The position numbers and the translations under genes were made by a program. Positions 11,025 to 27,280 of a stretch of 64,000 nt of DNA are shown in pieces (positions within the stretch are counted from its first letter, which is position 1; every line of letters begins with the position of its first letter). The notes beneath the pieces are model-generated. The model was given only the letters and a program-made list of their open reading frames with translations. It did no database searches and was not told the origin of the DNA. Source of the DNA: Streptomyces sp. NBC_01197. Its GTDB lineage: Bacteria; Actinomycetota; Actinomycetes; Streptomycetales; Streptomycetaceae. The stretch spans positions 3,917,001-3,981,000 of the forward strand of contig NZ_CP108569.1 in the NCBI RefSeq assembly GCF_036010505.1, in the 5' to 3' direction.

Positions 11025-11126
11025 CAGGCCAAAAACCTCAGGCGCTCATCGGCGGAGAGCTGATGTGCCGGCACGGGCGCGCCGTGGCTATGTTCTGCGG
11101 CGTGTGCCGCGGGAGCTTCCCCGTCC

Positions 11127-11206
11127 GGAGGATTCGTCCAGGGCTCTTCCCCGGGCGGAGAGGATTCGTCCAGGGATCCTCTCCGCCCGGGAGGATCCCT
11201 CCAGGG
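11127..11206. repeat. Clustered GGATTCGTCCAGGG repeats with perfect hairpin
   Basis: Three units of the type GAGGATTCGTCCAGGG (about 11128, 11160 and, variant, 11191) sit between the TetR gene and the P450 remnant. A perfect 15-bp inverted repeat, 11151-11165 against 11176-11190 with a 10-nt loop, overlaps them. It has no T-run, so it is not a classical terminator, but it could act as one in this GC-rich genome. Confidence 0.75.
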
Positions 11207-11260
11207 CGTCGCTCCGCAGGCGCCATTGACTCTTGCAGGCGCCGCCCGCACCCTCCCGGC

Positions 11261-11843
11261 ATGACCGCATCTCATCAGGCTCCGTTCGCTCCGTGCGCCG
11301 GCGAGAGCTGGCGCTCGCCGTGGGAGATGTACGCGACACTGCGCGACGCGCACCCCCTCCACTACGTCACCGACGGCGACTACTGGGTCCTGACCCGCTA
11401 CGCGGAGGTGCTCGCCGCCGCCCGCGACACGGACCGCTACTCCTCCGCCGACGGCCTGACGATCACCTACGGCGAGCGCGAACGCCTCGGCATCACCGAC
11501 GCCGCCCCGATGGTGATGCTGGACCCGCCCGAGCACACCGAGTTCCGCCGGTTGGTCACCCGCGGCTACACCCCGCGCCGGGTCGCCGACATCGAGCCGC
11601 ACGTCCGCGCCTTCGTCCGGTCCCGCCTGGACCACATCGCCGATCTCGGCGGCAACTGCGACATCGTCGCCGAACTCTTCAGACCGTTGCCCAGCTACGT
11701 CGTCGGCCGCTATCTCGGCGTCCCCGAACACGACCGCGCCCACTTCGACGGCTGGACCCACGTCATCGTCGAGGCCAACGCGCTGGGCGACCCGCTCGTC
11801 GCCGCCGAAGCCGTCACCAGCCTCTTCGGCTACTTCACCGAGC
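11261..11843 (+). pseudogene. Cytochrome P450, N-terminal fragment
   Basis: From the ATG at 11261 about 194 codons match the N-terminal half of a bacterial CYP105/CYP107-type P450: WEMYATLRDAHPLHYV, DYWVLTRYAEVLAAARD, MLDPPEHTEFRRLVTRGYTP, then the E and F helices (VGRYLGVPEHDRAHFDGW) and LFGYFTER. At about 11842 P450 similarity stops. The I-helix, the ExxR motif and the heme-binding Cys loop are absent; the frame continues into the antisense of an ATPase fragment. Without the heme ligand the product cannot be an active P450. The open frame runs to 12217, but the last 120 codons are antisense sequence. Confidence 0.85.
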
Positions 11844-12118
11844 GCGTTCCACTGGTCCGGGGCTTCCTCCGAGTAGAGTCCCCGCTCCGGCAAGGTGGAC
11901 CGGGCGACAGTATCGAGCAGTTCGGTCAGTTCGTCCTCCGCCGTACCGCCTGCCGCGGTGAAGAAGCAGTGTGGCGTCTCGGTGCGCCGGAGGAACTCCT
12001 CGACGAGGCTGGACTTGCCGACGCGCCGCCGACCGCGGATGAGGATGCACCGGCCTGGTTTCGTCGACCCGACGGCATCGTGAACCGCCTGCAAAGGGCT
12101 GTCCCGCAATTCCTGGTG
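11843..12118 (-). pseudogene. ATP-binding protein (archaeal-ATPase type), N-terminal fragment
   Basis: On the minus strand about 90 codons encode a P-loop ATPase start: ILIRGRRRVGKSSLVEEF (Walker A GRRRVGKSS) followed by HCFFTAAGGTAEDELTELL and ending at APDQWNAL. Relatives usually begin with a VGR-E-L motif that is missing here; an in-frame TGA lies just upstream (near 12135). Similarity ends at about 11843, exactly where the opposite-strand P450 fragment ends. Both ends are therefore lost, and no Walker B or C-terminal domain remains. A recombination remnant. Confidence 0.75.
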
Positions 12119-12159
12119 GATCAGCGCGCGGCGTCAGATGCGGTGCATCGCAAGGCGGA

Positions 12160-12194
12160 GGGACGTCCGCATACTGGATGTATGTGGACGTTCC
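12160..12194. repeat. REP-like hairpin with CTGGAT loop
   Basis: A 15-bp stem (12160-12174 with 12180-12194, two non-Watson-Crick positions) closes a TGGAT loop and is flanked by CAAGGCGGAG on the left and CGGCAACGCGGCGAGG on the right. I recall similar flank-stem-loop units in other Streptomyces intergenic regions. It lies between the ATPase remnant and the helicase-associated gene. The remaining sequence to 12370 contains no gene. Confidence 0.5.
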
Positions 12195-12370
12195 GGCAAC
12201 GCGGCGAGGTGCCGTAGCTGTCGTCGCGCGCCCGCCGGGAATTGCGGGACAGCCCTAAGGCGTTGCCGAGCATGTGCAGCGTGATCCCGCCCGATGAAGC
12301 GTCGCATGGCAAACCGCCCGTGGACGGTGGTATCGGTAAAGACACTATTCCTATCGATACATCTTCCTTT

Positions 12371-15083: not shown

Positions 15084-15103
15084 GTTTCGCCTGTTCAGGC
15101 GCC

Positions 15104-15160
15104 TGCGGAGGATACGAGATTCGAACTCGTGAGGGGCTGCCCCCCAACACGCTTTCCAAA
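15104..15160. other. Partial tRNA-Ser copy, outer attachment site
   Basis: This copies the 3' half of the minus-strand tRNA-Ser(GGA) at 27196-27280: the acceptor strand GGAGGAT at 15107-15113, the T-arm, the variable arm and the anticodon stem up to CTTTCCAA. After that it diverges into AATGTTCGTC, the same flank as the copy at 24671-24725. It lacks the 5' half, so it is not a tRNA gene but the footprint of an integration into the tRNA 3' end: the left end of the 15.2-24.7 kb element. Confidence 0.8.
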
Positions 15161-15304
15161 TGTTCGTCTGGGGTTCGGGGAGGTGCGGGGACGTCCTGAC
15201 CTGCGCGGCCGACTTGCTCAACGGCAACGCCGAAATAGTTGCCCCCGCATGGCTCACCGACCACGCCCGCCGACTGGCGTCCTGACCTGCGGCGCGGCCA
15301 GCGG

Positions 15305-15551: not shown

Positions 15552-17360
15552 TCAGGCTGTCTGGCCTGCGGCGAAGGCCCGGACCAGGTTGTGCAGGAAG
15601 TAACGGCCGGGGACCGGCTCCTGGAGGAGGTTGGCGTCGGCGAGGCTCTCCATGTAGGTCTCGGCCTCGCGGGGTGTGACGCCGGCGAGGGTCGCGGCGG
15701 TCTGAACGTCGATGTCGGGGACCTGGCGCAGCCCTAGGACGCGCAGCATGCGCCGCTGCGGGACGGACAGGCGCAGATAGGAGAGCTGGAGGGACGGGGC
15801 GACTCCGTAGGCGTCGATGGAACGGCCCGAGGAGAGGCGCTCCGCCAGCTGGTTCAGGCTCCGGCCCGGGTGGCCCCGCAGCCAGGCACCGGCGAGTTTG
15901 ACAGCCAGAGGCAGGTGTCCGCAGTGATGGACGACCGATTCGACCAGCTGGACGGGCTCGGCTTCGACGCGGTGCGGACCGACGACAGCAGTCAGCAGTT
16001 GGGCGGCCTCGGCCTGGTCCAGTACGTCCAGGGTCAGCAGCCGCGCCTGGTCCAGGCGGGCCAGTCGTCGGCGGCTGGTGACGATGACCCGGCAGCCGGG
16101 CGCGGTCGGCAGCAGCGGCTGGACCTGCGCCTCGTCCGCTGCGTCATCCAGTACCAGCAGCATCCGCCGGTCCCGCGTCAGACTGCGGAAGAGCGCCGCG
16201 CGTGCGCGCTCGTGCGGCGGTATCTCAGAGCCCGGCACACTCAGTGAACGCAGTACGAGTTCCAACGCGGTGGCCGGTTCGACGGGGCGCTTGGGCTGCG
16301 CGAAACCCCGGAGGTCGACGAAGAGCTGGCCGTCCGGAAAGCGGGGGGCGAGCTGATGGGCGAGGTGCACCGCGAAGGCGGTCTTGCCTATGCCCGCCAG
16401 ACCGTCCACCACGCAGACCGTCGTCCGGGACACCCGCTGCGACAGCAGGTCGCGCAGTTGGCTCAGCTCCTCCTGACGCCCGATGAAGTCGCCTGTACCC
16501 GGGGGGAGTTCGTCGGGAACAGCGACACGGGCCTTCGCCGCGAGTGTCGTCGAGGTGGAGCGGAGGGGCAGGTTCAGCGTCGGGTCGTTGGTGAGGATCT
16601 GCTGGTGCAGAAGCCTGAGTTCCGAACCGACGGCAATTCCGAGCTCACCCCGCAGCCGTTCGCTGACCTGCCGGAACGCGTCGAGTGCTTCGGCCTGGCG
16701 GCCCTGCCGGTAGAGCGCCAGCATCAGCTGTGCCCAGAAGTGCTCCCGCCACGGGCACGTGCGCACCTCGTCGCGGAGTTCGACGACGACCTCGCGATGC
16801 GCCCCGCGTTCCAGATCGAGGTCGATGCGCTGCTCCAGCGCGCAGTAGCGGCGTTCGGTGAGCCCCGGGACGAAATCGCGGTGCAGGACGTCCGAGGGCA
16901 CATTCGACAGTGCGGGCCCCCGCCACAGGCCCAGCGCCTCGCGCAGCAGTGCGCTTTCCCTTCGGTGGTCCCGGTCGGCAGCCATGCGCTGGGCCATTGT
17001 CAGCGTGCTGCGGAAACGCAGCAGGTCCAGCTGGGAGTCGTCCGCGGTCATGAGATAGCCGCCCGGAAGGGTACGGATCGGCTCCAGCCGCTCGTCGGAG
17101 GATGGGCTCAGTATCCGGCGCAATCTCATGACATAGGAGCGCAGCGTCGTATGGGCGCCTTCGGGTGGATTTTCACCCCATAGATATGCGGCCAATTCAT
17201 CCATGGAAACCGTTTGATTGGCACGCAGCAGCATCGACGCCAGTAAGATTCTTAACTTCGCCGCCGGTACGGGCACTTCTCGCTCCCCGCGCAGCACACG
17301 CAATGGCCCAAGTAATTGGAAGCTTAGGTTGCTTTCCTGCGTCACCATCTCGCGTCCCAT
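15552..17360 (-). CDS. AfsR/SARP family regulator with NB-ARC domain
   Basis: A 602-residue pathway-type activator. Domains in order: an OmpR-like winged helix (about 12-98, with LGPLRVLRGEREVPVPA and TLRSYVMRLRRIL); a bacterial transcriptional activation domain (about 105-250, LLREALGLWRGPALSNV ... EALDAFRQVSERLRGELG); and an NB-ARC ATPase (about 285-540, FIGRQEELSQLRDLL, Walker A DGLAGIGKTAFA, Walker B RRMLLVLDDAADEAQV). It ends without the C-terminal TPRs of AfsR. Three Leu codons in the first 40 are TTA (codons 16, 36 and 39; 17313-17315, 17253-17255, 17244-17246), so translation should depend on the bldA tRNA. It is divergent from the biosynthetic genes and is their likely activator. An alternative start is codon 5. 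Confidence 0.92.
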   Translation of the reverse strand: MGREMVTQESNLSFQLLGPLRVLRGEREVPVPAAKLRILLASMLLRANQTVSMDELAAYLWGENPPEGAHTTLRSYVMRLRRILSPSSDERLEPIRTLPGGYLMTADDSQLDLLRFRSTLTMAQRMAADRDHRRESALLREALGLWRGPALSNVPSDVLHRDFVPGLTERRYCALEQRIDLDLERGAHREVVVELRDEVRTCPWREHFWAQLMLALYRQGRQAEALDAFRQVSERLRGELGIAVGSELRLLHQQILTNDPTLNLPLRSTSTTLAAKARVAVPDELPPGTGDFIGRQEELSQLRDLLSQRVSRTTVCVVDGLAGIGKTAFAVHLAHQLAPRFPDGQLFVDLRGFAQPKRPVEPATALELVLRSLSVPGSEIPPHERARAALFRSLTRDRRMLLVLDDAADEAQVQPLLPTAPGCRVIVTSRRRLARLDQARLLTLDVLDQAEAAQLLTAVVGPHRVEAEPVQLVESVVHHCGHLPLAVKLAGAWLRGHPGRSLNQLAERLSSGRSIDAYGVAPSLQLSYLRLSVPQRRMLRVLGLRQVPDIDVQTAATLAGVTPREAETYMESLADANLLQEPVPGRYFLHNLVRAFAAGQTA

Positions 17361-17619: not shown

Positions 17620-18690
17620 GTGTACGACTCATCCATGCTGGTCAAGGAGATCTCCGACTGGTTGTCAAGGCCCGCCGACGAGGTGGATCGACAATTCACA
17701 GGATCGGAACGTGACAGGATAAGGGCGGCAGTTGCCGAGCTGAACGAAAATGCCTTGTCCGGAGATCCGGAGAGCTTTTATCACCAACAGCTCCTGTTGT
17801 CCCGTATCTACCACCTGATCACGCGTATCCCGGATGCGGAGACAGCAGAGGGCTCGCTCGCGGTCCATGAGGTGACCCGGCTGCTGGAGCAGGCGACGCT
17901 GCTCGGCGAGGACCGGCAGCTGGACGCCGCGCTCCTGGAGGGCCTGCCCTCCGACCCCGGTGAGTTCCTTTCCTGGCTCAAGGGGCAGGCCAGGCAGCAC
18001 CGCGTTTTCAAGCACCCGTACTACACGGACTTCATCCGCAACCACGCCACCGCGGCGGACGTGCGCACGTACATGATCCAGGAGTCCGTGGTCGACGGTC
18101 GGTTCGACGACCTGCTGGCTCTGATGCAGGTGGGCACCAGCGGTGCCGCGAAGATGGAGATCGCGTCCAACTTCTGGGACGAGATGGGGAATGGAAAGCC
18201 CGAAGAGGTCCACACCACTCTCTTCAACCAGATATTCGACGTGTTCGAGGTGTCCGAGACGGAGCTGGAGGAGACGCTGACCGCCACCGCACTCCTGAGT
18301 GGAAATCTCGCAGTGCTCCTCAGCCGGTACCGGCACCGGTATCCGGAGGCCGTCGGTTTCCTGGGCATGACGGAATGGCTGGTGCCGGACCGCTTCGTGC
18401 AGGTGGTGAGCGCGTGGGAACGACTCGGCCTGCCGGACGTGGGAATCGTCTACCACCGTCTGCACATCACCATCGACTCCCAGCACGCCGCGGGCTGGTT
18501 CCACAACATCGTGAAACCGGCCGCGCCGTCGGAGTACATGCGACTGGGAATCGCCCGCGGGGCGTTGTGGCGGCTCAACTCCTCGGCGCGCTATCTGGAC
18601 GAACGGCTGGCCGAGGTGCCCGGACGGGTGGCCGGTGAGAAGGCGGAGGACCGCGTCGCCGCGGAGACCACCGCGCTCGTCACCGGATGA
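17620..18690 (+). CDS. Heme-oxygenase-like diiron oxidase (iron-containing redox enzyme)
   Basis: A 356-residue helical enzyme of the HDO group (SznF, BesC, UndA relatives) that activates O2 at a two-iron centre. Candidate ligands are E155 (MIQES), E188 (FWDEMG), H198 (EEVHTT), E252 (TEWLVP), H282, D286 and H289 (HITIDSQHAAGW). The E188-H198 (10), E252-H282 (30) and H282/D286/H289 (4, 3) spacings equal those I recall for the SznF ligands, which suggests an N-oxygenase or oxidative C-C cleaving enzyme acting on an amino acid. The GTG start at 17620 has GAAGGAG at 17608-17614; an upstream in-frame extension lacks support. It is the first gene of a probable four-gene transcript. Confidence 0.88.
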   Translation: MYDSSMLVKEISDWLSRPADEVDRQFTGSERDRIRAAVAELNENALSGDPESFYHQQLLLSRIYHLITRIPDAETAEGSLAVHEVTRLLEQATLLGEDRQLDAALLEGLPSDPGEFLSWLKGQARQHRVFKHPYYTDFIRNHATAADVRTYMIQESVVDGRFDDLLALMQVGTSGAAKMEIASNFWDEMGNGKPEEVHTTLFNQIFDVFEVSETELEETLTATALLSGNLAVLLSRYRHRYPEAVGFLGMTEWLVPDRFVQVVSAWERLGLPDVGIVYHRLHITIDSQHAAGWFHNIVKPAAPSEYMRLGIARGALWRLNSSARYLDERLAEVPGRVAGEKAEDRVAAETTALVTG

Positions 18691-18787
18691 CGTGGCGCGG
18701 AGCCCCGTCCGCCGGACGCGGGCCTGCACCCGGACCCGGCCGGAAGCACCTCGTGGAACAAGCCTCACGGAATGAAAGGCGAGTCAT

Positions 18788-19492
18788 ATGCCACTGACCG
18801 ACCAGCGTTTCTCGATCATCGACATCCCGGCGGTCCAGCCGAATGTGCTGGCCAGCTATGACAACTGCCCGGTAGACGAGTACATGGGCAACGGCACCCG
18901 GTACAAACGGTTCTCGCAGTACCGCATGAGCTTCACGGAGAGTGCCGGTTGGGGTTTTGAACTCCTGCCGCACCGGGACTACACCACGTTCAAGAAGTTC
19001 AATAACGTCGCCGGTGGTATCCGCCGGGGGTATCTGCCGATCGAGGTGGATTTCACGCCTCTCATCCGGGCCGGGGCCGAGGGGTTCCCCCTGGACACCA
19101 AGGACGAATGGCAGATCAACGTCCATCAGAACCGCACCCGGGCCACCGGTGAGAAGCCCGGCCCGCTGACGCCGGAGGGCGTGCACCACGACGGGCACGA
19201 ATTCGTCATGATCGCCGTCCTGCGGCGCAACAACGTCGGGGGCGGTCTGACCCGGCTGTGGGAGCCCGGCGCGGAGGAGCCGTTCTGGGCCGGCACCCTG
19301 GATGCCGGTCAGGCTGTGCTGCTCGACGACCGGGCGCTCGCACACGACGTCACGGACGTGCTCTCCGCCGACGGCGGTCCGGGGCACCGCGACATCCTCA
19401 TCGTCGCCTTCTCCCGCTGGAGCGAGAAGTGGTACGGCGACCAGCACGACGAGGCGGCCCTGGACGACGTGCCGGAGCCGTCGGGGATGTAG
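18788..19492 (+). CDS. 2OG-Fe(II) dioxygenase, amino-acid hydroxylase type
   Basis: A 234-residue enzyme of the 2OG-Fe_Oxy_2 group, which includes isoleucine dioxygenase-type free L-amino-acid hydroxylases. The iron triad is H133, D135 (GVHHDGHEFV) and H186 (ALAHDVTDV). R201 (GHRDILIVAFSRW) is placed to bind 2-oxoglutarate. The double-stranded beta-helix core (VMIAVLRRNNVGGGLTRLW ... GQAVLLDDRALAH) is complete. It probably hydroxylates a free or modified amino acid in the pathway. It starts at ATG 18788, 97 bp after the diiron oxidase, preceded by a weak AAAGGCGAG site. Cytosolic. Confidence 0.88.
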   Translation: MPLTDQRFSIIDIPAVQPNVLASYDNCPVDEYMGNGTRYKRFSQYRMSFTESAGWGFELLPHRDYTTFKKFNNVAGGIRRGYLPIEVDFTPLIRAGAEGFPLDTKDEWQINVHQNRTRATGEKPGPLTPEGVHHDGHEFVMIAVLRRNNVGGGLTRLWEPGAEEPFWAGTLDAGQAVLLDDRALAHDVTDVLSADGGPGHRDILIVAFSRWSEKWYGDQHDEAALDDVPEPSGM

Positions 19493-19618
19493 GGGCGCGG
19501 TTCTGGGTCCGGACCGCCGGGGGTCGCACACCGTACGAGCATCTCTCGTCGGTGTACGACCCCCGAGCGGTCGGGCGACCGGTCGGGCACCGTCACGACT
19601 CCCGGAAGCAGGTGGCAC

Positions 19619-20599
19619 ATGTACGACTTCGTGAAGTACCAAGCACTGGGCAACGACTACTTGGTCATCGATCCGCAGCGGATCGACCTGCTGGAGTTGC
19701 CGTCCACCGCGCAGGCCGCCCGCCTGCTGTGCGACCGGCACTTCGGCATCGGTGCTGACGGGGTCCTGCTGGGACCGGTCGGCGCGGTGAGAGATGGCGA
19801 GCCGGTCGTCCTGCGCGCCTTCAACTCCGACGGCAGCGTCTGTGGCAGGAGCGCCAACGGACTGCGAATATTCGCCCTCTACCTTTACCAGTACCACCAG
19901 GGAGCGCGGGACGTCGTCATCCGTACGCTCGCGGGCGACACCGCGGTGCGGATCGAGGACCTCGACGAGGGCATCGCCCGGGTGGAGATGGGCCGCCCCA
20001 CCTTCGAGGCGGCGGACATTCCGGCGCAGGACCTGCCCGGCCCCGTCGTGGCCCGGCCGCTGGACGTGGCAGGGCGACAGCTCCAGGTGATCTGTCTGAA
20101 CAACGGCAACCCGCACACCGTCGTCCCGCTCCCCGAAGTGTCCGCCGCGCTGGCACATGAGGTGGGGCCGCTGATCGCGGGCCATCCGGCCTTCCCCGAG
20201 CGGACCAACGTGCAGTTCATGCGCGTGCTCGACCGCGAGACGGTGGAGATCGAGATCTGGGAGCGCGGCGCGGGCTACGCTCTGGCCTCCGGCAGCAGCG
20301 CCTGCGCCGCGGCCAGCGCCGCTCATGCCCTGGGCCTGGTGGACCCCGCGGTACGGGTGCGGATGCCCGGCGGCGCCTTCGAGACCGCCATCGACGCGCA
20401 GGGCGCGGTCACCCTGTCCGGCGCTTCGGAGCAGGTCGCGGCCGGATTCCTGGCACCGCGACTCCGCGCCCGTCTCGGACTGCCCGCCGCACTGGACACG
20501 GCCGCACCGGACACGCCGGTAACAGGCCCGCCCGCACCGGACACGGACACCAGCAGGCCGACCGCCGGTGCCCCGGCCGGGCAGGGGACTGCCGCATGA
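19619..20599 (+). CDS. Diaminopimelate epimerase-like protein lacking both catalytic Cys
   Basis: A 326-residue DapF-fold protein: VKYQALGNDYLVID at the N-terminus, FGIGADGVLL, FNSDGSVCGRSANGLR, NNGNPH, and ERGAGYALASGSSACAAA. True epimerases need two cysteines, in the contexts CGN-G and ACG-G. Here the first position is S78 (RSANG) and the second S224 (LASGSS). A Cys three residues before the first (C75) and one five after the second (C229) exist but are not in catalytic register. The N, G, D and E residues that bind the alpha-amino and carboxylate groups are kept. A new activity (cyclisation, dehydration, binding) is more likely than DAP epimerisation. The C-terminal 40 residues are a Pro/Thr/Asp tail. 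It overlaps the next gene by ATGA. Confidence 0.9.
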   Translation: MYDFVKYQALGNDYLVIDPQRIDLLELPSTAQAARLLCDRHFGIGADGVLLGPVGAVRDGEPVVLRAFNSDGSVCGRSANGLRIFALYLYQYHQGARDVVIRTLAGDTAVRIEDLDEGIARVEMGRPTFEAADIPAQDLPGPVVARPLDVAGRQLQVICLNNGNPHTVVPLPEVSAALAHEVGPLIAGHPAFPERTNVQFMRVLDRETVEIEIWERGAGYALASGSSACAAASAAHALGLVDPAVRVRMPGGAFETAIDAQGAVTLSGASEQVAAGFLAPRLRARLGLPAALDTAAPDTPVTGPPAPDTDTSRPTAGAPAGQGTAA

Positions 20600-21714
20600 C
20601 GTCCCTCGACGCCGGCATCGCCGCGAAGCCGTTCTACTCCATCGCCCGTTGGACGTTCGTCGACTCCGCCGGGCGCTACGACATCGACCTCGGCAACAGC
20701 TACGTACCGAGCCGCAGACTGTCCGACCTGAGCGTCCCCGCGGACCTTGAGCTCGGCTACGGGACCGACCGGGGCACCACGGAACTGCGCGACCGGATCG
20801 CCGGACTGTACGGCGGCCGGCCGGAGTCGGTCACCGTCACGCACGGCGCGCAGGAGGCGCTGTTCCTGTTGTTCGACGTGCTGCTGCGGCCCGGCGACGA
20901 GGTGATCGCGTTCAACCCCGGATGGCAGCCGCTGCTGGACCTGCCGCCCCGGCTCGGCGCGAGCGTGACGGTCCTGCCGTACGGACCGGATCTGTCCGTG
21001 GACGCCGCCGCCGTGACCGCGGCGGCCGGTGAGAACCTGCGGCTGATCGCGCTGAACTCGCCCTGCAACCCCACAGGCCGCCGGGTCGAGGAGGAGGAAC
21101 TTCGGGCGCTGGTGGCGCTGGTGGCTGAGCGGGACGCCTATCTGCTGGTCGACGAGGAGTACGCGATCGATCTGTCGCGCTCCCCGGCCGTCGGCCAGGA
21201 CCGGGTGATCTCGGTCTCCGGTCTGTCCAAGACCTACGGCCTGCCGGGTCTGCGCACAGGCTGGGTGTACGGCGCGCCGCAGGTGGCGGAAGCCTGCGCG
21301 GAGCGCAAGTTCCTCACCTCGATCGCCAACTCCGTGCTGTGCGAGGCCCTGGCCTGCTCGGCGCTGGACCGGCACGAGGACTACGCGCGGGAGTACCACC
21401 GGCTGTGCGCCCCGGGCCTGCGGCTCGTCGAGGAGTGGGCGGCCCGCCACCCGGATGCCGTCCGGCTGGCGCCGCCACAGGGCACGCCCTTCGCCTGGAT
21501 ACAACTGCGTACCGGCGAGACCTCCTTGGCGCTGTGCCGCCGGGCGCTGGAGGCCGGTCTGTTGCTGACCCCCGGGGAGACCATGGGCTCAGACGAAGGC
21601 TTCCGGCTCGGCTTCGCCCGCGAGGTCGACACGGTGACCGAGGGCCTGCGGCGGCTGGACACCGTACTGCTGCCGGACGGGCCGTCCGGCGGGGACAGGC
21701 CGTCCGGCGGTTGA
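20596..21714 (+). CDS. Class I/II aminotransferase-fold PLP enzyme
   Basis: A 372-residue fold-type I PLP enzyme. The Schiff-base lysine is K212 (VSGLSKTYGLPGLRTGW). N158 (CNPTGR), D186 and Y189 (LVDEEYA) are the usual cofactor contacts, and HGAQEALFLLFD binds the phosphate. The C-terminal Arg (FRLGFAR) would bind the substrate carboxylate. It belongs with the group holding aminotransferases and capreomycidine-synthase-like cyclases rather than the AspC core, so it may transaminate, eliminate or cyclise the hydroxylated intermediate. Start ATG overlaps the DapF-like stop (20596-20599), implying translational coupling. It is the last gene of the presumed operon, 17 bp from the convergent exporter. 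Confidence 0.88.
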   Translation: MTSLDAGIAAKPFYSIARWTFVDSAGRYDIDLGNSYVPSRRLSDLSVPADLELGYGTDRGTTELRDRIAGLYGGRPESVTVTHGAQEALFLLFDVLLRPGDEVIAFNPGWQPLLDLPPRLGASVTVLPYGPDLSVDAAAVTAAAGENLRLIALNSPCNPTGRRVEEEELRALVALVAERDAYLLVDEEYAIDLSRSPAVGQDRVISVSGLSKTYGLPGLRTGWVYGAPQVAEACAERKFLTSIANSVLCEALACSALDRHEDYAREYHRLCAPGLRLVEEWAARHPDAVRLAPPQGTPFAWIQLRTGETSLALCRRALEAGLLLTPGETMGSDEGFRLGFAREVDTVTEGLRRLDTVLLPDGPSGGDRPSGG

Positions 21715-21731: not shown

Positions 21732-22745
21732 TCAGGATCGCGCCGGTTGGCCGGTCTCCTCTTCCTTCTCCTCCTCGGGTGGCCGGGGTACGGCTTCGGC
21801 TTCGTCCGCGGTCCCGGCTCCGGCCCCGGCCACCGGACGTGACGGCGCGGTGCGGGTCAGCAGTACGCCACTGACGATCAGCACCGCGCCCACCACGGTG
21901 TTCCAGCCCAGCGACTCGTTCAGGAAGAACACCCCGACGATCGCCGCCCACAGCGGGGTCAGATACGCAACCGTGGAGGCGACCGTCGAGCCGACGGCGC
22001 GGATCACCGACAGGTTCCACATGTACGCGAGCCCGGTGCCCACGGCGCCGAGCACCACCATGCCGGCCATCGGCCCCGTCCCGGCCCAGTGTGGTGTGCC
22101 GCTCAACATCGGTGCGCACACAGCGAGTTCGAGGGCCGCCCAGCTGACCTGGATGGCGGTCAGGGTGATCGCGGGGATATCTCCGCCGGACAGGAACCGG
22201 CGGGTGTAGGTGTAGCCCAGCCCGTACGAGGCGGTGGCGACCAGGCAGATCACACTCCCCTTCATCAGCGAGGACTGCCCGCCCGACCACACGCCGAGCA
22301 CCACCAGGGCGCCGACCAGGCCGGTGGCGATGCCGAGCAGCCGCCGCAGGGTCGGTTTCTCGTCCGGCAGCATGACCACTACCCAGACCAGGGTGAACAG
22401 GGGAATGGTGGAGTTCCACACCCCGGCCGTGACGGAGGTGATGTACTTCTCGCCCCAGGCGAACAGGGTGAAGGGGAAGGCATTGAGCACCGTCCCCACC
22501 ACCAGGGCGTGCCCCCATACTCGCAGGTCACGCGGCACCCCCAGCCGCCGCACCAGTACCAGGCCCCACAGCACCAGTGCTCCGAAGAAGCACCGCCAGA
22601 AGGCGACCCAACCCGGTTCGATACCGGCTTCGACACCGATCTTGATGAGCGCGAACCCAGACCCCCAGATCATCGAGCAGATGACGAACTGAGGTACCCA
22701 CGACTTGGCCGGTACAGCGGATAAGGCGTCTACGGAGCTTGCCAC
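21732..22745 (-). CDS. EamA/DMT family exporter
   Basis: A 337-residue membrane protein with ten hydrophobic helices in two five-helix EamA repeats. The first begins VPQFVICSMIWGSGFALIKIGVEAG, the second MKGSVICLVATASYGLGYTYTRRFL. Conserved Pro and Gly positions of the family are present (LTPLWAAIVGVFFLNESLGW). Family members export amino acids and small metabolites, fitting a product of the adjacent amino-acid-type pathway, for export or self-protection. It starts with GTG at 22745 behind AAAGGAC. The C-terminal tail is acidic (PEEEKEEE). It converges on the aminotransferase gene. Confidence 0.88.
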   Translation of the reverse strand: MASSVDALSAVPAKSWVPQFVICSMIWGSGFALIKIGVEAGIEPGWVAFWRCFFGALVLWGLVLVRRLGVPRDLRVWGHALVVGTVLNAFPFTLFAWGEKYITSVTAGVWNSTIPLFTLVWVVVMLPDEKPTLRRLLGIATGLVGALVVLGVWSGGQSSLMKGSVICLVATASYGLGYTYTRRFLSGGDIPAITLTAIQVSWAALELAVCAPMLSGTPHWAGTGPMAGMVVLGAVGTGLAYMWNLSVIRAVGSTVASTVAYLTPLWAAIVGVFFLNESLGWNTVVGAVLIVSGVLLTRTAPSRPVAGAGAGTADEAEAVPRPPEEEKEEETGQPARS

Positions 22746-22842: not shown

Positions 22843-23601
22843 TCACGTCTCCGTGCTGCGCCCGACCGCCGCCGAGGCGAAGGCGCGCACCAGGGGATGG
22901 GGCCGGGAGGTGTCGTCGGCCAGTTCGGGCTGGAACAGGGTGGACAGGAAGAACGGGTGCCCCGGCAGTTCGGCGATGCGGGGGTGGCCGTCGTCGTCGT
23001 GGCCGGTGAAGCGCAACCCGTGGTCGCGCAGAGTGCCGGCGTACCGGGGGTCCAGAGCGTGCGTGCACTGGTAGCGCTCCACGGTCGTACGCGCGCCGAG
23101 CGCTTCCTCGGCCAGTGAGCCGGGCTCGATGCGGACGGTCCCCTCATGGCCCGCGAGGTCGCGCGACAGCGGCACGATCAGCGGAAGCGGGCTGCCGGGG
23201 GAGTTCTCGGCGTGTGCGGCACCGTCCAGCGCGCAGACGTGGCGGGCGAATTCCAGGAGGACGTGCAGGAAGCCGCCGCAGGTCGCCAGCAAGGGGATGT
23301 CCCGCTCGCGCGCCGTGCGCACAGCGCTCACCGCTCCGGCCTCGCTCAGGTAGGGGCTGCCCGGCACCAGCCAGATGCCGTCGAACCCGGCCAGGTCCCG
23401 GGGGCCGTCGAGCTGCGCGGTCGACACCCAGTAGGCGTCCACCAACAGCCGTTCGCGGCGCCATAGCCTCTCCAGCATCGGCGCATAGCGGGTGTGCGCG
23501 GGCACGCCCGCCGACCGCTCGCCGACGAGCGCGATCCGGGCGGGCCGGGTGCGCGAAAGGTCCGGGTCGGCCTGGGGGTGTGGTGCGACGGTGGTGGGCA
23601 C
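22843..23601 (-). CDS. CTP synthase C-terminal-like (class I GATase fold) protein
   Basis: A 252-residue protein of the family annotated as CTP synthase C-terminal region-related. It has a class I glutamine-amidotransferase fold: RIALVGERSAG, DGIWLVPGSPY, and the nucleophile elbow PLLATCGGFLHVLLEFARH with its Cys. The catalytic His position near the C-terminus reads FQPEL, with Gln in place of His, so glutaminase activity is doubtful. It may bind or hydrolyse a gamma-glutamyl intermediate; that is speculation from fold. I favour the GTG at 23601, just outside the divergent LysR gene; a longer frame to 23685 would overlap it. Confidence 0.7.
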   Translation of the reverse strand: MPTTVAPHPQADPDLSRTRPARIALVGERSAGVPAHTRYAPMLERLWRRERLLVDAYWVSTAQLDGPRDLAGFDGIWLVPGSPYLSEAGAVSAVRTARERDIPLLATCGGFLHVLLEFARHVCALDGAAHAENSPGSPLPLIVPLSRDLAGHEGTVRIEPGSLAEEALGARTTVERYQCTHALDPRYAGTLRDHGLRFTGHDDDGHPRIAELPGHPFFLSTLFQPELADDTSRPHPLVRAFASAAVGRSTET

Positions 23602-23621: not shown

Positions 23622-24590
23622 ATGGCAAAAGGACAAACGATAGCTTCTGATTCCTCGATAAGTGATGCTGATCTGGTGGACCCACGCCTGCTCAAGACCT
23701 TCTCGGCCGTCATCACGCACGGCTCCTTCTCCGACGCCGCCAGGGAGCTGGGCTACACCCAGTCCGCGGTGTCCCAGCAGATCGCCTCACTGGAAGGGGA
23801 GCTGGGCGTCGAGTTGGTCCGTCGACGGCCGGTCGGCCCGACGGAGGCCGGTACCCGGCTGATGGACCACGTGGCCTCGATCCTCCTGCGCATCGACGCC
23901 GCACGCGCGGAAGTCCAGAGGGTGAAGGGCGGAACCACCGGGCGGCTGACCGTCGGCATCTGTCCACTGGCGGCCACGGCACACGCACTGCGCATCATCG
24001 GTGAGGTGGCCCGGCGGGTCGGCGTGCACGAGCTGACGGTACGTACGCTGCCGCGCCAGGCCGTCGCCGAGGGCGTCGCCACCGGCGAACTGGACCTCGG
24101 CCTGGTCGACGGCTTCGCTCTGTCCGATGACCCCCTGCGCCCGCCCAGGGTGGCCGGGCTGCACGGCGCACCGGTCTGCCGGGAGCCGGTGGTGGTGGCC
24201 CTGCCGCCCCACCACCCCCTGGCACACCGCACGGGTCTGCGGCTGGCGGACCTGATCGACGCCCGGTGGATCGACGCTCCGGGCGTGAGCGCCCCCCTGG
24301 CGGACCTGTCCGCCGTGGTCGGAGACAGCCCCCATCTGCGGGTGGCCCTGCGATACGACGGCCACGACGTGCGTACGTACACCGAGCTGCTTGCCGGAGG
24401 ACAGGGCCTGGGCCTCCTCCCACGCTTCGCGCTCGCCGGGCGGCAGGACCTGGTCGGCATCCCACTGACACAGCCGGAGCTGTCCCACCGCGTCGAGGCC
24501 CTGCGCGTCACGGGCGGCCCACCGGTGGTGGACGACCTGGTCGCATCGCTCACCGAGCCCGTCGGCACCGAGATCCAGCCGCGAAGCTGA
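23622..24590 (+). CDS. LysR family transcriptional regulator
   Basis: A 322-residue LTTR. The winged HTH (about residues 19-78) reads LKTFSAVITHGSFSDAARELGYTQSAVSQQIASLEGELGVELV. The effector domain begins at GRLTVGICPLAATAH and has the two alpha/beta lobes (GELDLGLVDGFA, EPVVVALPPHHPLA, LLAGGQGLGLLPRFAL). It is divergent from the CTP-synthase-like gene across a gap of only about 20 bp, so the two promoters overlap and it probably regulates that gene. It is a second candidate regulator for the island. Alternative start: GTG in frame at 23675. Its stop lies in a 23-bp tandem repeat. Confidence 0.9.
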   Translation: MAKGQTIASDSSISDADLVDPRLLKTFSAVITHGSFSDAARELGYTQSAVSQQIASLEGELGVELVRRRPVGPTEAGTRLMDHVASILLRIDAARAEVQRVKGGTTGRLTVGICPLAATAHALRIIGEVARRVGVHELTVRTLPRQAVAEGVATGELDLGLVDGFALSDDPLRPPRVAGLHGAPVCREPVVVALPPHHPLAHRTGLRLADLIDARWIDAPGVSAPLADLSAVVGDSPHLRVALRYDGHDVRTYTELLAGGQGLGLLPRFALAGRQDLVGIPLTQPELSHRVEALRVTGGPPVVDDLVASLTEPVGTEIQPRS

Positions 24591-24665: not shown

Positions 24666-24670
24666 TGCCT

Positions 24671-24725
24671 GCGGAGGATACGAGATCCGAACTTGTGAGG
24701 GGGTTGCCCCCAACATGCTTTCCAA
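24671..24725. other. Partial tRNA-Ser copy, junction of two tandem elements
   Basis: A second copy of the 3' half of the tRNA-Ser gene (acceptor strand GGAGGAT at 24673-24679 through CTTTCCAA), slightly decayed (CCGAACTTGT in place of TCGAACTCGT). To the right it continues AATGTTCGTC, as at 15.16 kb. To the left it has the element-type hairpin, as at 27.19 kb. It therefore marks the boundary between the outer (15.2-24.7 kb) and inner (24.7-27.2 kb) elements. Non-functional as a tRNA. Confidence 0.8.
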
Positions 24726-25034
24726 ATGTTCGTCCAGGTGTCCCGACGTCTCAATGGTCACGGCGTGGATGTCTTCGGACACGCGGCCGTGAACGTCGAG
24801 CACCGGCTGTCCCGTGTCATCGAACCTTGAGCATTGTCACCGAAGGTTGGTGATCGATAGGTTCGTGTCATCGAAGGTTGAGTGTGGCAGTACCGCCGTC
24901 GGCAGGGGTGAGTGAGGGCCTGGCGGCGGAAGAACGTTCGGCGAAAGTCACAGTGACCGCATCGCGAACGCATCTGGACGGTCTCTCCGGTCAGAACCTG
25001 GTCCTTTCTGAAGCTGGCGAGCGGAGCGGCAGCG
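24726..25034. other. Non-coding left end of the inner element
   Basis: About 310 bp without a gene. It holds the left arm of a 42-bp inverted repeat (24808-24849) and a third, partial copy of its core (about 24865-24884), then unrecognised sequence up to the HAD stop. Confidence 0.55.
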
Positions 25035-25917
25035 TCACGCCACCATCCCGAGCACAGCCTGCAGCCCGTCCGGCCGGCTCTCTACCGGAAGGTGCTCCAC
25101 CGGCAGGTAGCGGCACCCGACCGTCTCGGCCCCGCCATCCTTCTGCCGCTCGTCACCGACCATCAGTGCTTCGGCGGGGTTGACGCCCAGCTGGTCGCAG
25201 GCGAGCCGGAAGATCCGTGGATCGGGTTTGTCCATCCCCACCTCGTACGAGAATATGTTTGCGTCGATGTACGGCGTGAGGCCGAGCGCGTCGAAAACCG
25301 GCCGCCAGTCCCAGCCGACGTTGCTCACGACCGCGATCCGCACACCCCGCTCGCGCAGCCCGCGCAGCACGTCGAGGGCGTCCGGGTAGAGCCGCCATGC
25401 GGCCGGCTGGAACGTCCGCTCATACAGCGCGTCGTACAGGCCCTCCCAGGGCAGGTCCGCCCGCCGCGCCAGACCGGTGAACGCCGCACGGTGCGCCTCC
25501 TCGCTGCTGTCGCGCGCCCGCCACACCGCGGCCAGCTGATCCGGCACCACCCGTGGCGGCGTGCCACCGGGTACGGCCCCCGCGGCGTCGAGCCGCTCCC
25601 CATACAGCCGTACTTCCTCGTCAGATGCCTCGATGCCGCGATCGTCGAGCACCCCGCGCAGCCAGCTCTGGGCTGACTCAATCCGCAGCAGGGTCCCGGA
25701 CGCGTCGAACAACACACCCTTAATCGTCATGATCGCGACCCTAGCCGCAGCACACCGTCGAGCGTCAGGACCCTGGCGACAGTTCACTGTCGAGCGTCAA
25801 GACCGCGAGACCGCTCCCAGGATCAGAAACAGGCTCTGACCTGACCGAGCAGACGAGGCAAGCGAGCACACCGCTCAACCTTCGGTGACATCACTCAAGG
25901 TTCGATGACACGGGACA
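24808..25917. mobile_element. Inverted-repeat unit carrying a HAD gene (no transposase)
   Basis: Left arm 24808-24849 and right arm 25876-25917 are inverted copies, 39 of 42 identical, with the three mismatches adjacent. Each arm contains two sub-repeats of a TGTCATCGAACCTTGA-like motif, and a third sub-repeat lies inside the left end. Multiple terminal sub-repeats resemble IS21-type ends, but no transposase is present. The only cargo is the HAD gene. The right arm abuts the truncated integrase N-terminus. Confidence 0.6.
25035..25730 (-). CDS. HAD-IA family hydrolase
   Basis: A 231-residue cytosolic hydrolase. Motif I is VLFDASGTLL: the first Asp is kept but the usual DGTL second Asp is Ser (DASGT), as in some dehalogenase and phosphatase-like HADs. 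Motif II is IAVVSNVGW, motif III K in MDKPDPRIF, motif IV MVGDERQKDGGAE. A C1 cap (about 18-90) is present. Substrate unknown. Start ATG at 25730; upstream in-frame codons read through non-conserved sequence. It is alone inside the 42-bp inverted repeats, probably passenger cargo. Confidence 0.85.
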   Translation of the reverse strand: MTIKGVLFDASGTLLRIESAQSWLRGVLDDRGIEASDEEVRLYGERLDAAGAVPGGTPPRVVPDQLAAVWRARDSSEEAHRAAFTGLARRADLPWEGLYDALYERTFQPAAWRLYPDALDVLRGLRERGVRIAVVSNVGWDWRPVFDALGLTPYIDANIFSYEVGMDKPDPRIFRLACDQLGVNPAEALMVGDERQKDGGAETVGCRYLPVEHLPVESRPDGLQAVLGMVA

Positions 25918-25994
25918 CCGGCTTGCGACAGATCACGCAGTGGCCCCGGAGCAGCAGGGGTGAGGTGCCGGCCGGCGAGGACCGACGCCATGTC

Positions 25995-27131
25995 ATGAGC
26001 AAGCTCAATGAAGGGGAGGTCATCAAGAAGGTTCGCGAGCTGGAGAAGCAGGGAGACGCGGGAAAGGTCCGGAAGCCGGGGCGGGTGTGGGCCGTCAAGA
26101 CATGGCTTCAGCACTGGGTGGAGGAGATCGCCGAACCGTCGGTGCGGGAGAACACCTATGCCGGGTACGAGATTGCCGTCAGAGTCCACCTGACTCCCGG
26201 TCTCGGTGCTCATCGCCTCGACAAGCTGGAGCCGGAACACCTGGAGCGCTTCTACACGAAGATGCTGGCCAACGGCAGTAAGCCCGCAACCGCCCACCAG
26301 GCTCACCGCACCATCCGAACAGCGCTCAACCACGCCATGAGGCGCGGCCACGTCACCCGGAACGTCGCCACGCTCGCCGTCCCGCCCCGCATCGAAGACG
26401 AAGAGGTGGAGCCGTACGACATCGAAGAGGTGCAGCAACTCCTCTCCGAAGCGGCCAAGCTACGGAACAGCGCACGCTGGTCCATCGCGCTCGCCCTCGG
26501 CCTCCGTCAGGGCGAAGCACTGGAGCTGCGCTGGTCGGACGTGGACCTCCCGGCAGGAATCCTGCGGGTCCGCAAGAACCGTCTGCGGCCCAAGTACCTG
26601 CACGGCTGCGGGGGAGAGTGCGGAAGCAAGCCCGGCTACTGCAAGCAGCGCGTCAGGAAGAACGAGGACACGGCCAACACGAAGTCCGTGCCGGGCGCCG
26701 GGCCATCGGCGTGCCGGACGAACTGGTCCGTCTCCTGGAGCTGCACCGCAAGGAACAGGATCAGGAGCGCCGTCGGGCCGCTCAGGAGTGGTGCGAGACG
26801 GGGGTTCGTCTTCACCTCACCCGTCGGCGCCCCCTTGGTGCCGAGTACTGACTACGACGCGTGGAAGCAGTTGCTCATCGATGCCAAGGTGCGCGACGGG
26901 CGCTTGCACGATGCCCGGCACACCGCCGCCACGGTGCTGCTCATCCTGGGAGTCCCGGAGCGCGTAGTGATGCAGATCATGGGCTGGTCGTCCACGGCGA
27001 TGGCGGCCCGCTACCAGCACGTGACCGGCGGCATCCTGCAAGACGCGGCCAAGCAGGTTGGTGGACTCATCTGGGAGATCGCGAAGAGCGACGAGGGAAC
27101 ATCGAAGGAGGCCCCCGAACAGCCTCGTTGA
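25995..27131 (+). CDS. Tyrosine recombinase/integrase, damaged
   Basis: A 378-residue integrase of the actinomycete ICE type, ending 65 bp from the tRNA-Ser gene it should target. The core-binding domain is about 30-125 (VRENTYAGYEIAVRVHLTPGLG). Catalytic residues visible: R171 (LGLRQGEALELRW), H305 and R308 (LHDARHTAA), W331 in place of the second His, and Y340 (ARYQHV). A Cys cluster (GCGGECGSKPGYC) follows the first Arg. Residues about 232-269 (26688-26801) are out of register; the expected sequence AIGVPDELVRLLELHRKEQ is in another frame, so two compensating indels exist. The N-terminal arm-binding domain of about 50 residues is missing, apparently removed by the inverted-repeat unit. Activity is doubtful. 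Confidence 0.85.
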   Translation: MSKLNEGEVIKKVRELEKQGDAGKVRKPGRVWAVKTWLQHWVEEIAEPSVRENTYAGYEIAVRVHLTPGLGAHRLDKLEPEHLERFYTKMLANGSKPATAHQAHRTIRTALNHAMRRGHVTRNVATLAVPPRIEDEEVEPYDIEEVQQLLSEAAKLRNSARWSIALALGLRQGEALELRWSDVDLPAGILRVRKNRLRPKYLHGCGGECGSKPGYCKQRVRKNEDTANTKSVPGAGPSACRTNWSVSWSCTARNRIRSAVGPLRSGARRGFVFTSPVGAPLVPSTDYDAWKQLLIDAKVRDGRLHDARHTAATVLLILGVPERVVMQIMGWSSTAMAARYQHVTGGILQDAAKQVGGLIWEIAKSDEGTSKEAPEQPR

Positions 27132-27190: not shown

Positions 27191-27195
27191 AGCTG

Positions 27196-27280
27196 CGGAG
27201 GATACGAGATTCGAACTCGTGAGGGGTTGCCCCCAACACGCTTTCCAAGCGTGCGCCCTAGGCCACTAGGCGAATCCTCC
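27196..27280 (-). tRNA. tRNA-Ser (anticodon GGA)
   Basis: Complete class II tRNA. Acceptor stem GGAGGAT with ATCCTCC, discriminator G, anticodon loop CTTGGAAAG giving GGA (reads UCC/UCU), a long variable arm (GTTGGGGGCAACCCC) and the T-arm GTTCGAATC. The 3' end is followed by CA, not a full CCA. It is the integration target of the two tandem elements to its left; partial copies are at 15104-15160 and 24671-24725. Confidence 0.95.

Follow-up and report, generated by a model that had tools for sequence, protein, structure and literature searches.

What does a small set of genes for amino-acid chemistry make when no peptide assembly line accompanies it? The question is raised by four consecutive, intact open reading frames (ORFs) of Streptomyces sp. 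NBC_01197, which encode a haem-oxygenase-like diiron oxidase (HDO), a 2-oxoglutarate- and iron-dependent (2OG) enzyme, a protein like diaminopimelate epimerase (DapF) and a pyridoxal 5′-phosphate (PLP) enzyme. They lie in an islet spanning ≈ 15.1–24.7 kb of the window, by which we mean the whole stretch of 64,000 nucleotides analysed (positions 3,917,001–3,981,000 of the 7.6-Mb contig NZ_CP108569.1; genome, 7.7 Mb; relatives at 93–99% protein identity are Streptomyces). We think it probable that the islet is a self-contained pathway that would make a free nitrocyclopropane amino acid from L-lysine; the chemistry of the DapF-like and PLP proteins, and the final product, we infer. In window coordinates, the four genes are:

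17620..18690, + strand: HrmI/BelK-type HDO; GTG start, AAGGAG upstream
18788..19492, + strand: HrmJ/BelL-type 2OG-Fe enzyme, putative nitrocyclopropanase
19619..20599, + strand: BelM/HrmT-type DapF-fold protein, with Ser78 and Ser224 replacing both catalytic cysteines
20596..21714, + strand: fold-type-I PLP enzyme, aminotransferase class I/II (Pfam PF00155)

The dapF and PLP genes overlap by ATGA (4 bp), an arrangement indicative of translational coupling. Pfam matches above cut-off in the islet were PF14518, PF10014, PF01678, PF00155, EamA, LysR and SARP/BTAD.

The HDO aligned with HrmI, its sole match in the PDB, with 127 of 303 aligned residues identical (42%, E = 8.7e-68). The 2OG enzyme was 72% identical to the crystallised proteins 9dq0 and 8jms, which bear the PDB titles HrmJ and BelL, and a structure prediction using 30 sequences gave a pLDDT of 90. 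Its identity to HrmJ-ssa (9dqp) was only 24%, which shows that proteins far apart in sequence share the PDB name HrmJ. Passages of the review PMC10764440 report the activities of HrmI/BelK and HrmJ/BelL and describe a BelL homologue of S. cavourensis that produces the cis isomer, (1′R,2′S)-Ncpa, of 3-(2-nitrocyclopropyl)alanine (Ncpa). Very likely, the first steps of the islet pathway lead from L-lysine by way of 6-nitronorleucine to Ncpa. The HDO would oxidise the side-chain amine of lysine to a nitro group, yielding L-6-nitronorleucine, and the 2OG enzyme would close the C4–C6 bond, possibly to the cis isomer as for the S. cavourensis enzyme. It is by strong homology to enzymes tested elsewhere that these activities are ascribed to the islet proteins. 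The original prediction had called the second protein a 2OG hydroxylase; we dropped hydroxylation on account of the identity to nitrocyclopropanases and the review passages cited above. The middle residue of the H-X-D motif (His in 34 of 40 loci) proved not decisive for the product diastereomer, its correspondence to position 136 of BelL, like the stereochemical outcome, being presumptive. A 2OG homologue with 69% identity is encoded on a 146-kb Streptomyces plasmid (NZ_CP108679.1, 28805–29500).

To place the module among related genomes, we searched 394 genomes of the family with the 2OG enzyme; 41, its own included, had a match at E ≤ 1e-20. Neighbourhoods were taken around the 27 strongest of 43 matches outside the own genome and at 22 loci from a contig search which, after removal of 8 duplicates, made 41 loci. 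Because the loci were selected by 2OG similarity, fractions of them are not natural frequencies. L057 and L058, which have the 2OG gene only (32–34%), stand in the tblastn table and were excluded from gene clustering. All four genes were present at 31 of the 41 non-window loci (32 with the window), on one strand in every case. They were adjacent at 29 of these 32, at 22 as HDO-2OG-DapF-PLP and at seven as 2OG-HDO-DapF-PLP, where the HDO is less closely related (≈ 40%); the only truly non-adjacent loci, L046, L075 and L080, have a distant PLP paralogue (29–30%) kilobases away. The 4-bp dapF/PLP overlap was found at 26 of the 32 loci, window included. Conservation of the set across loci excludes a chance association, and the earlier description of four consecutive genes, the last two overlapping by ATGA, was borne out. 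Pairwise distances correlated at 0.93 for 2OG and DapF, 0.82 for DapF and PLP and, the lowest value, 0.52 for HDO and PLP; shared ancestry alone also raises such values. The 2OG gene stood without the others at L050, L053–L056, L057 and L058.

At 18 of the 32 loci, the PLP gene is followed by a nonribosomal peptide synthetase (NRPS) gene of condensation–adenylation–thiolation (C-A-T) type, in most cases with serine hydroxymethyltransferase (SHMT)-like, A-T and thioesterase genes as well. Seven loci carry a PIG-L gene, several of them together with ATP-grasp or major facilitator superfamily genes, and three carry a molybdopterin reductase gene. The remaining type, with genes for an EamA exporter, a glutamine amidotransferase (GATase)-fold protein and a LysR regulator, comprises four loci: the window, L059 (Streptomyces sp. 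NBC_01306), L060 (S. albidus) and L061 (S. daqingensis). In the NRPS-type locus L036, the 2OG enzyme is identical to 9dq0 at 226 of 227 residues and the four genes have the same order; a crystallised enzyme of this family therefore occurs in this four-gene arrangement. At L051, the neighbours are isopropylmalate synthase (IPMS)-like, aconitase-like, AMP-ligase and molybdopterin genes, a set that we take to be belactosin-like.

In an alignment with solved DapF structures, both catalytic cysteines, the pair expected of a diaminopimelate epimerase, were replaced by serine (Ser78 and Ser224). The second site is Ser at all 34 module loci and the first at 33, the exception being Asn at L051. Among the best 120 of 7,866 matching proteins (own included), 119 were Ser/Ser and one was Ser/Ala. 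N69, H166, N197, E215 and R216 were invariant in the same 120, N164 was kept in 118 and N12 in 116, with four gaps; these seven residues are presumably those of the substrate clamp of Haemophilus influenzae DapF. Cys75, three residues before Ser78, was present at 34 of 34 module loci and in 119 of the 120 listed homologues. The other DapF of the genome, a housekeeping copy at 1.743 Mb, keeps Cys/Cys. Since both catalytic cysteines are gone and the amino-acid-binding residues are kept, a lysine-supplying epimerase is unlikely, as is, judged from its residues, any action of the protein as a thiol-pair epimerase. The likeness to DapF lies in the fold family, the family-level score and the amino-acid-binding residues; the difference lies in Ser78/Ser224 in place of the cysteine pair and in the nearly invariant cysteine upstream. 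Thus, the name DapF homologue given in the original prediction was right, with the reservation that both catalytic cysteines are replaced. Their conserved loss also calls into question the role proposed for BelM/HrmT.

For the PLP enzyme, the top NCBIfam models were GntC (202 bits) and VioD (196.6 bits), the PLP cyclases of guanitoxin and capreomycidine. These nearest profiles scored about half their curated cut-offs (415 and 390.9), and we therefore assign the enzyme to neither. Its best PDB match was 3op7. The translation retains an SLSK-type lysine motif and a C-terminal FR motif, to which we assume the customary meanings apply. Transaminase chemistry and α/β-carbanion chemistry both fit the protein. 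Its gene looks new as a fourth member of the module, and the coupled enzyme suggests that several related clusters contain a step yet to be assigned.

We propose that the PLP enzyme and the Ser/Ser DapF-fold protein with which it is co-translated would act jointly at the α carbon of Ncpa. The DapF-like protein would bind the amino acid without two-thiol epimerisation, and the PLP enzyme would carry out a transamination or a GntC/VioD-like α/β-carbanion step. The EamA protein would export the product, under regulation by the SARP and LysR proteins. The islet would have entered at tRNA-Ser(GGA), in a lineage that lost the NRPS kept by relatives. More tentatively, and with considerable doubt, the pair may be a two-protein catalyst of new nitrocyclopropyl chemistry (for example, PLP-carbanion-driven opening of the nitrocyclopropane, isomerisation or transamination) in which the DapF-like protein handles the substrate or shuttles protons without a thiol, so that the mobile islet releases a free antimetabolite without a peptide assembly line.

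The other features of the islet and its borders are:

15101..15168: att-like repeat at the left islet edge, a partial copy of the 3′ part of tRNA-Ser(GGA)
15552..17345, − strand: SARP/AfsR-type regulator (Pfam BTAD and NB-ARC, lacking a TPR part), transcribed divergently from the HDO gene
21732..22700, − strand: EamA-family exporter (Pfam EamA)
22843..23601, − strand: CTP-synthase C-terminal-like GATase-fold protein (NF004836); a longer start at 23685 is possible
23676..24590, + strand: LysR regulator (Pfam LysR), divergent from the GATase gene
24667..24734: att-like repeat at the right islet edge, a second partial tRNA-Ser copy
25905..27131, + strand: tyrosine integrase (Pfam PF00589), located between the right repeat and the tRNA gene in an adjacent element
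27195..27280, − strand: intact tRNA-Ser(GGA) (ARAGORN), the likely integration target, adjoining signal recognition particle (SRP) RNA and dnaX

The islet edges are formed by a 68-nt direct repeat, of which 55 nt match tRNA-Ser at 96%; at the left repeat, ARAGORN called no tRNA. The SRP RNA was identified by Rfam and dnaX by Pfam DNA polymerase III domains. The same repeats are present in L059–L061. Identity of the islet was 98.3% to L059 over 9.4 kb, and 94.7% to L060 and 93.1% to L061 over 8.2 kb; homology to all three ends at the repeat core (24724–24725). The chromosomal flanks on the dnaX side were 82.4% (L060) and 83.0% (L061) identical. Flanking partial tRNA copies, a horizontal signal and a nearby integrase, as expected of a tRNA-integrated islet, are all found here. 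The islet appears to be mobile and to have entered at tRNA-Ser(GGA); the neighbouring tyrosine integrase is a possible, though uncertain, agent of its movement. The tRNA-Ser(GGA)/SRP RNA/dnaX region resembles an integration hotspot, several relatives having a second copy of the tRNA 3′ end (53–62 bp) kilobases away.

The SARP protein scored 437.7 bits with NCBIfam AfsR, under the cut-off of 1430, and the EamA protein 93 bits with TIGR00950 (carboxylate/amino acid/amine transporter), also below cut-off. The GATase-fold protein, which had been listed as a neighbour of the pathway, is indeed there: its Pfam match was below cut-off (20.9 versus 22.8 bits), and it passed NF004836 (278.8 versus 260 bits), a family named CTP synthase C-terminal region-related (seleno)protein. 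The nucleophilic cysteine is kept and the canonical HPE reads QPE at 30 of 30 loci, which leaves the Cys-His-Glu triad incomplete. This family occurs in 146 of 392 genomes of the genus, and a divergent LysR gene adjoins it at all 30 fetched loci (own included in both counts). We found no support for the GATase as a pathway enzyme or a CTP-synthase decoy; being half of a LysR–GATase pair that is widespread elsewhere in Streptomyces, it probably belongs to a general unit and not to the pathway core.

No NRPS, polyketide synthase (PKS) or ligase was detected by Pfam and NCBIfam among the islet genes, nor among ten further large genes, a part of those in the window. The earlier picture of a four-enzyme, small amino-acid pathway with a SARP regulator and an EamA exporter, free of NRPS and ligase genes in the islet and conserved in several strains, held up.

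Several findings weigh against a self-contained pathway to a free amino acid. At L044, the HDO and 2OG genes are accompanied by a PLP paralogue, with no dapF nearby (its genome holds a second, full module, L038), and the belactosin-like loci L051 and L052 have no PLP gene within ≈ 10 kb; neither the DapF-like protein nor the PLP enzyme is therefore needed for every Ncpa product. The GATase–LysR pair is common without the module, which makes its link to the pathway weak. The DapF-like protein passes the NCBIfam DapF equivalog cut-off (201.7 versus 114.65 bits), and its homologues carry the database name diaminopimelate epimerase. This score would suit a role of the DapF-like and PLP proteins in precursor supply: the two would enlarge the pool of lysine, and Ncpa would be the end product; part of the review PMC10764440 suggests such a role for BelM/HrmT. 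We consider this quite unlikely: not one of the 34 module loci keeps either catalytic cysteine, all 120 listed homologues have the second or both replaced, and the genome already has a Cys/Cys DapF. Moreover, a portion of PMC8225329 reports that single Cys→Ser changes leave PddB with < 0.1% activity and refers to similar findings for the DapF of M. tuberculosis.

The own genome also has other NRPSs (48 matches to the module NRPS) that could act in trans, and Ncpa might be loaded into a peptide by one of these, in keeping with the C-A-T NRPS that follows the PLP gene at 18 of the 32 four-gene loci. This seems unlikely: the genome has no orthologue of the module NRPS, since full-length matches reached at most 37% identity versus 57–59% between cluster types, and the islet is common to four strains as an NRPS-free unit. 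For want of such an orthologue, we set aside an NRPS in trans. An NRPS was probably present earlier, because a midpoint-rooted FastTree of 2OG, DapF and PLP nests the EamA–GATase clade next to the NRPS types (grouping with Micromonospora/Actinokineospora NRPS loci, support 0.989), which makes NRPS loss in the islet lineage likely. Such a loss, and the SARP gene, which is shorter in L060 and L061 (homology begins only at window position 16544, inside the gene), would also fit an islet that is what remains of a decaying NRPS cluster and yields nothing useful. We regard this as highly unlikely. The genes are intact and free of stops in four strains, the ratio of nonsynonymous to synonymous changes (dN/dS) was 0.19–0.53 in 14 comparisons with L060 and L061, and the islet gained an exporter and regulators. 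Comparison with L059 involved too few changes to be informative (dN/dS 0.97 for the PLP gene at a dS of 0.007).

How does the proposed lysine-to-nitrocyclopropane islet compare with known systems? The original prediction knew no characterised cluster with this combination. That statement fails, as three of the four genes correspond to the belKLM/hrmIJT trio of belactosin and hormaomycin, described in parts of PMC10764440: an HrmI/BelK-type HDO, an HrmJ/BelL-type 2OG-Fe cyclopropanase and an adjacent BelM/HrmT DapF homologue are grouped in both. The DapF orthologue of L051 likewise lacks both cysteines (Asn, Ser). Unlike the trio, the islet adds a co-translated PLP gene, an exporter, regulators and tRNA borders, and it is without β-lactone genes; neither NRPS nor ATP-grasp/IPMS-type genes, as in a whole belactosin or hormaomycin cluster, were found among the islet genes. 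The orphan NRPS clusters around 9dq0/8jms (for example, L036, L035 and L070) share the same four genes, their order and the 4-bp dapF/PLP overlap, but extend further, into genes for a C-A-T NRPS, an SHMT-like protein, an A-T NRPS and a thioesterase, all of which the islet lacks. The HDO/2OG/DapF combination is thus known, whereas the PLP member, the cysteine-less DapF and the NRPS-free mobile islet look new; these three were unreported in the open literature searched, the PLP neighbour perhaps being already in print. Nitrocyclopropane chemistry has so far come from two peptide families. A mobile version free of NRPS would, if true, be the simplest natural source of a nitrocyclopropane amino acid and offer a compact system for testing.

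Some minor observations concern other loci and the rest of the window. L075 and L046 show an NRPS-free Ncpa-type cluster in the order EamA, HDO, 2OG, DapF, molybdopterin reductase, aldo/keto reductase, PLP paralogue and ornithine cyclodeaminase homologue. A conserved 459-residue protein with no Pfam match follows the module in loci of the PIG-L/ATP-grasp type (L078, 13797–15176). Finally, the window ORF at 11063–12217, adjoining a TetR gene, looks like part of a P450 gene running on into unrelated sequence and, judged by eye, is possibly a broken gene.

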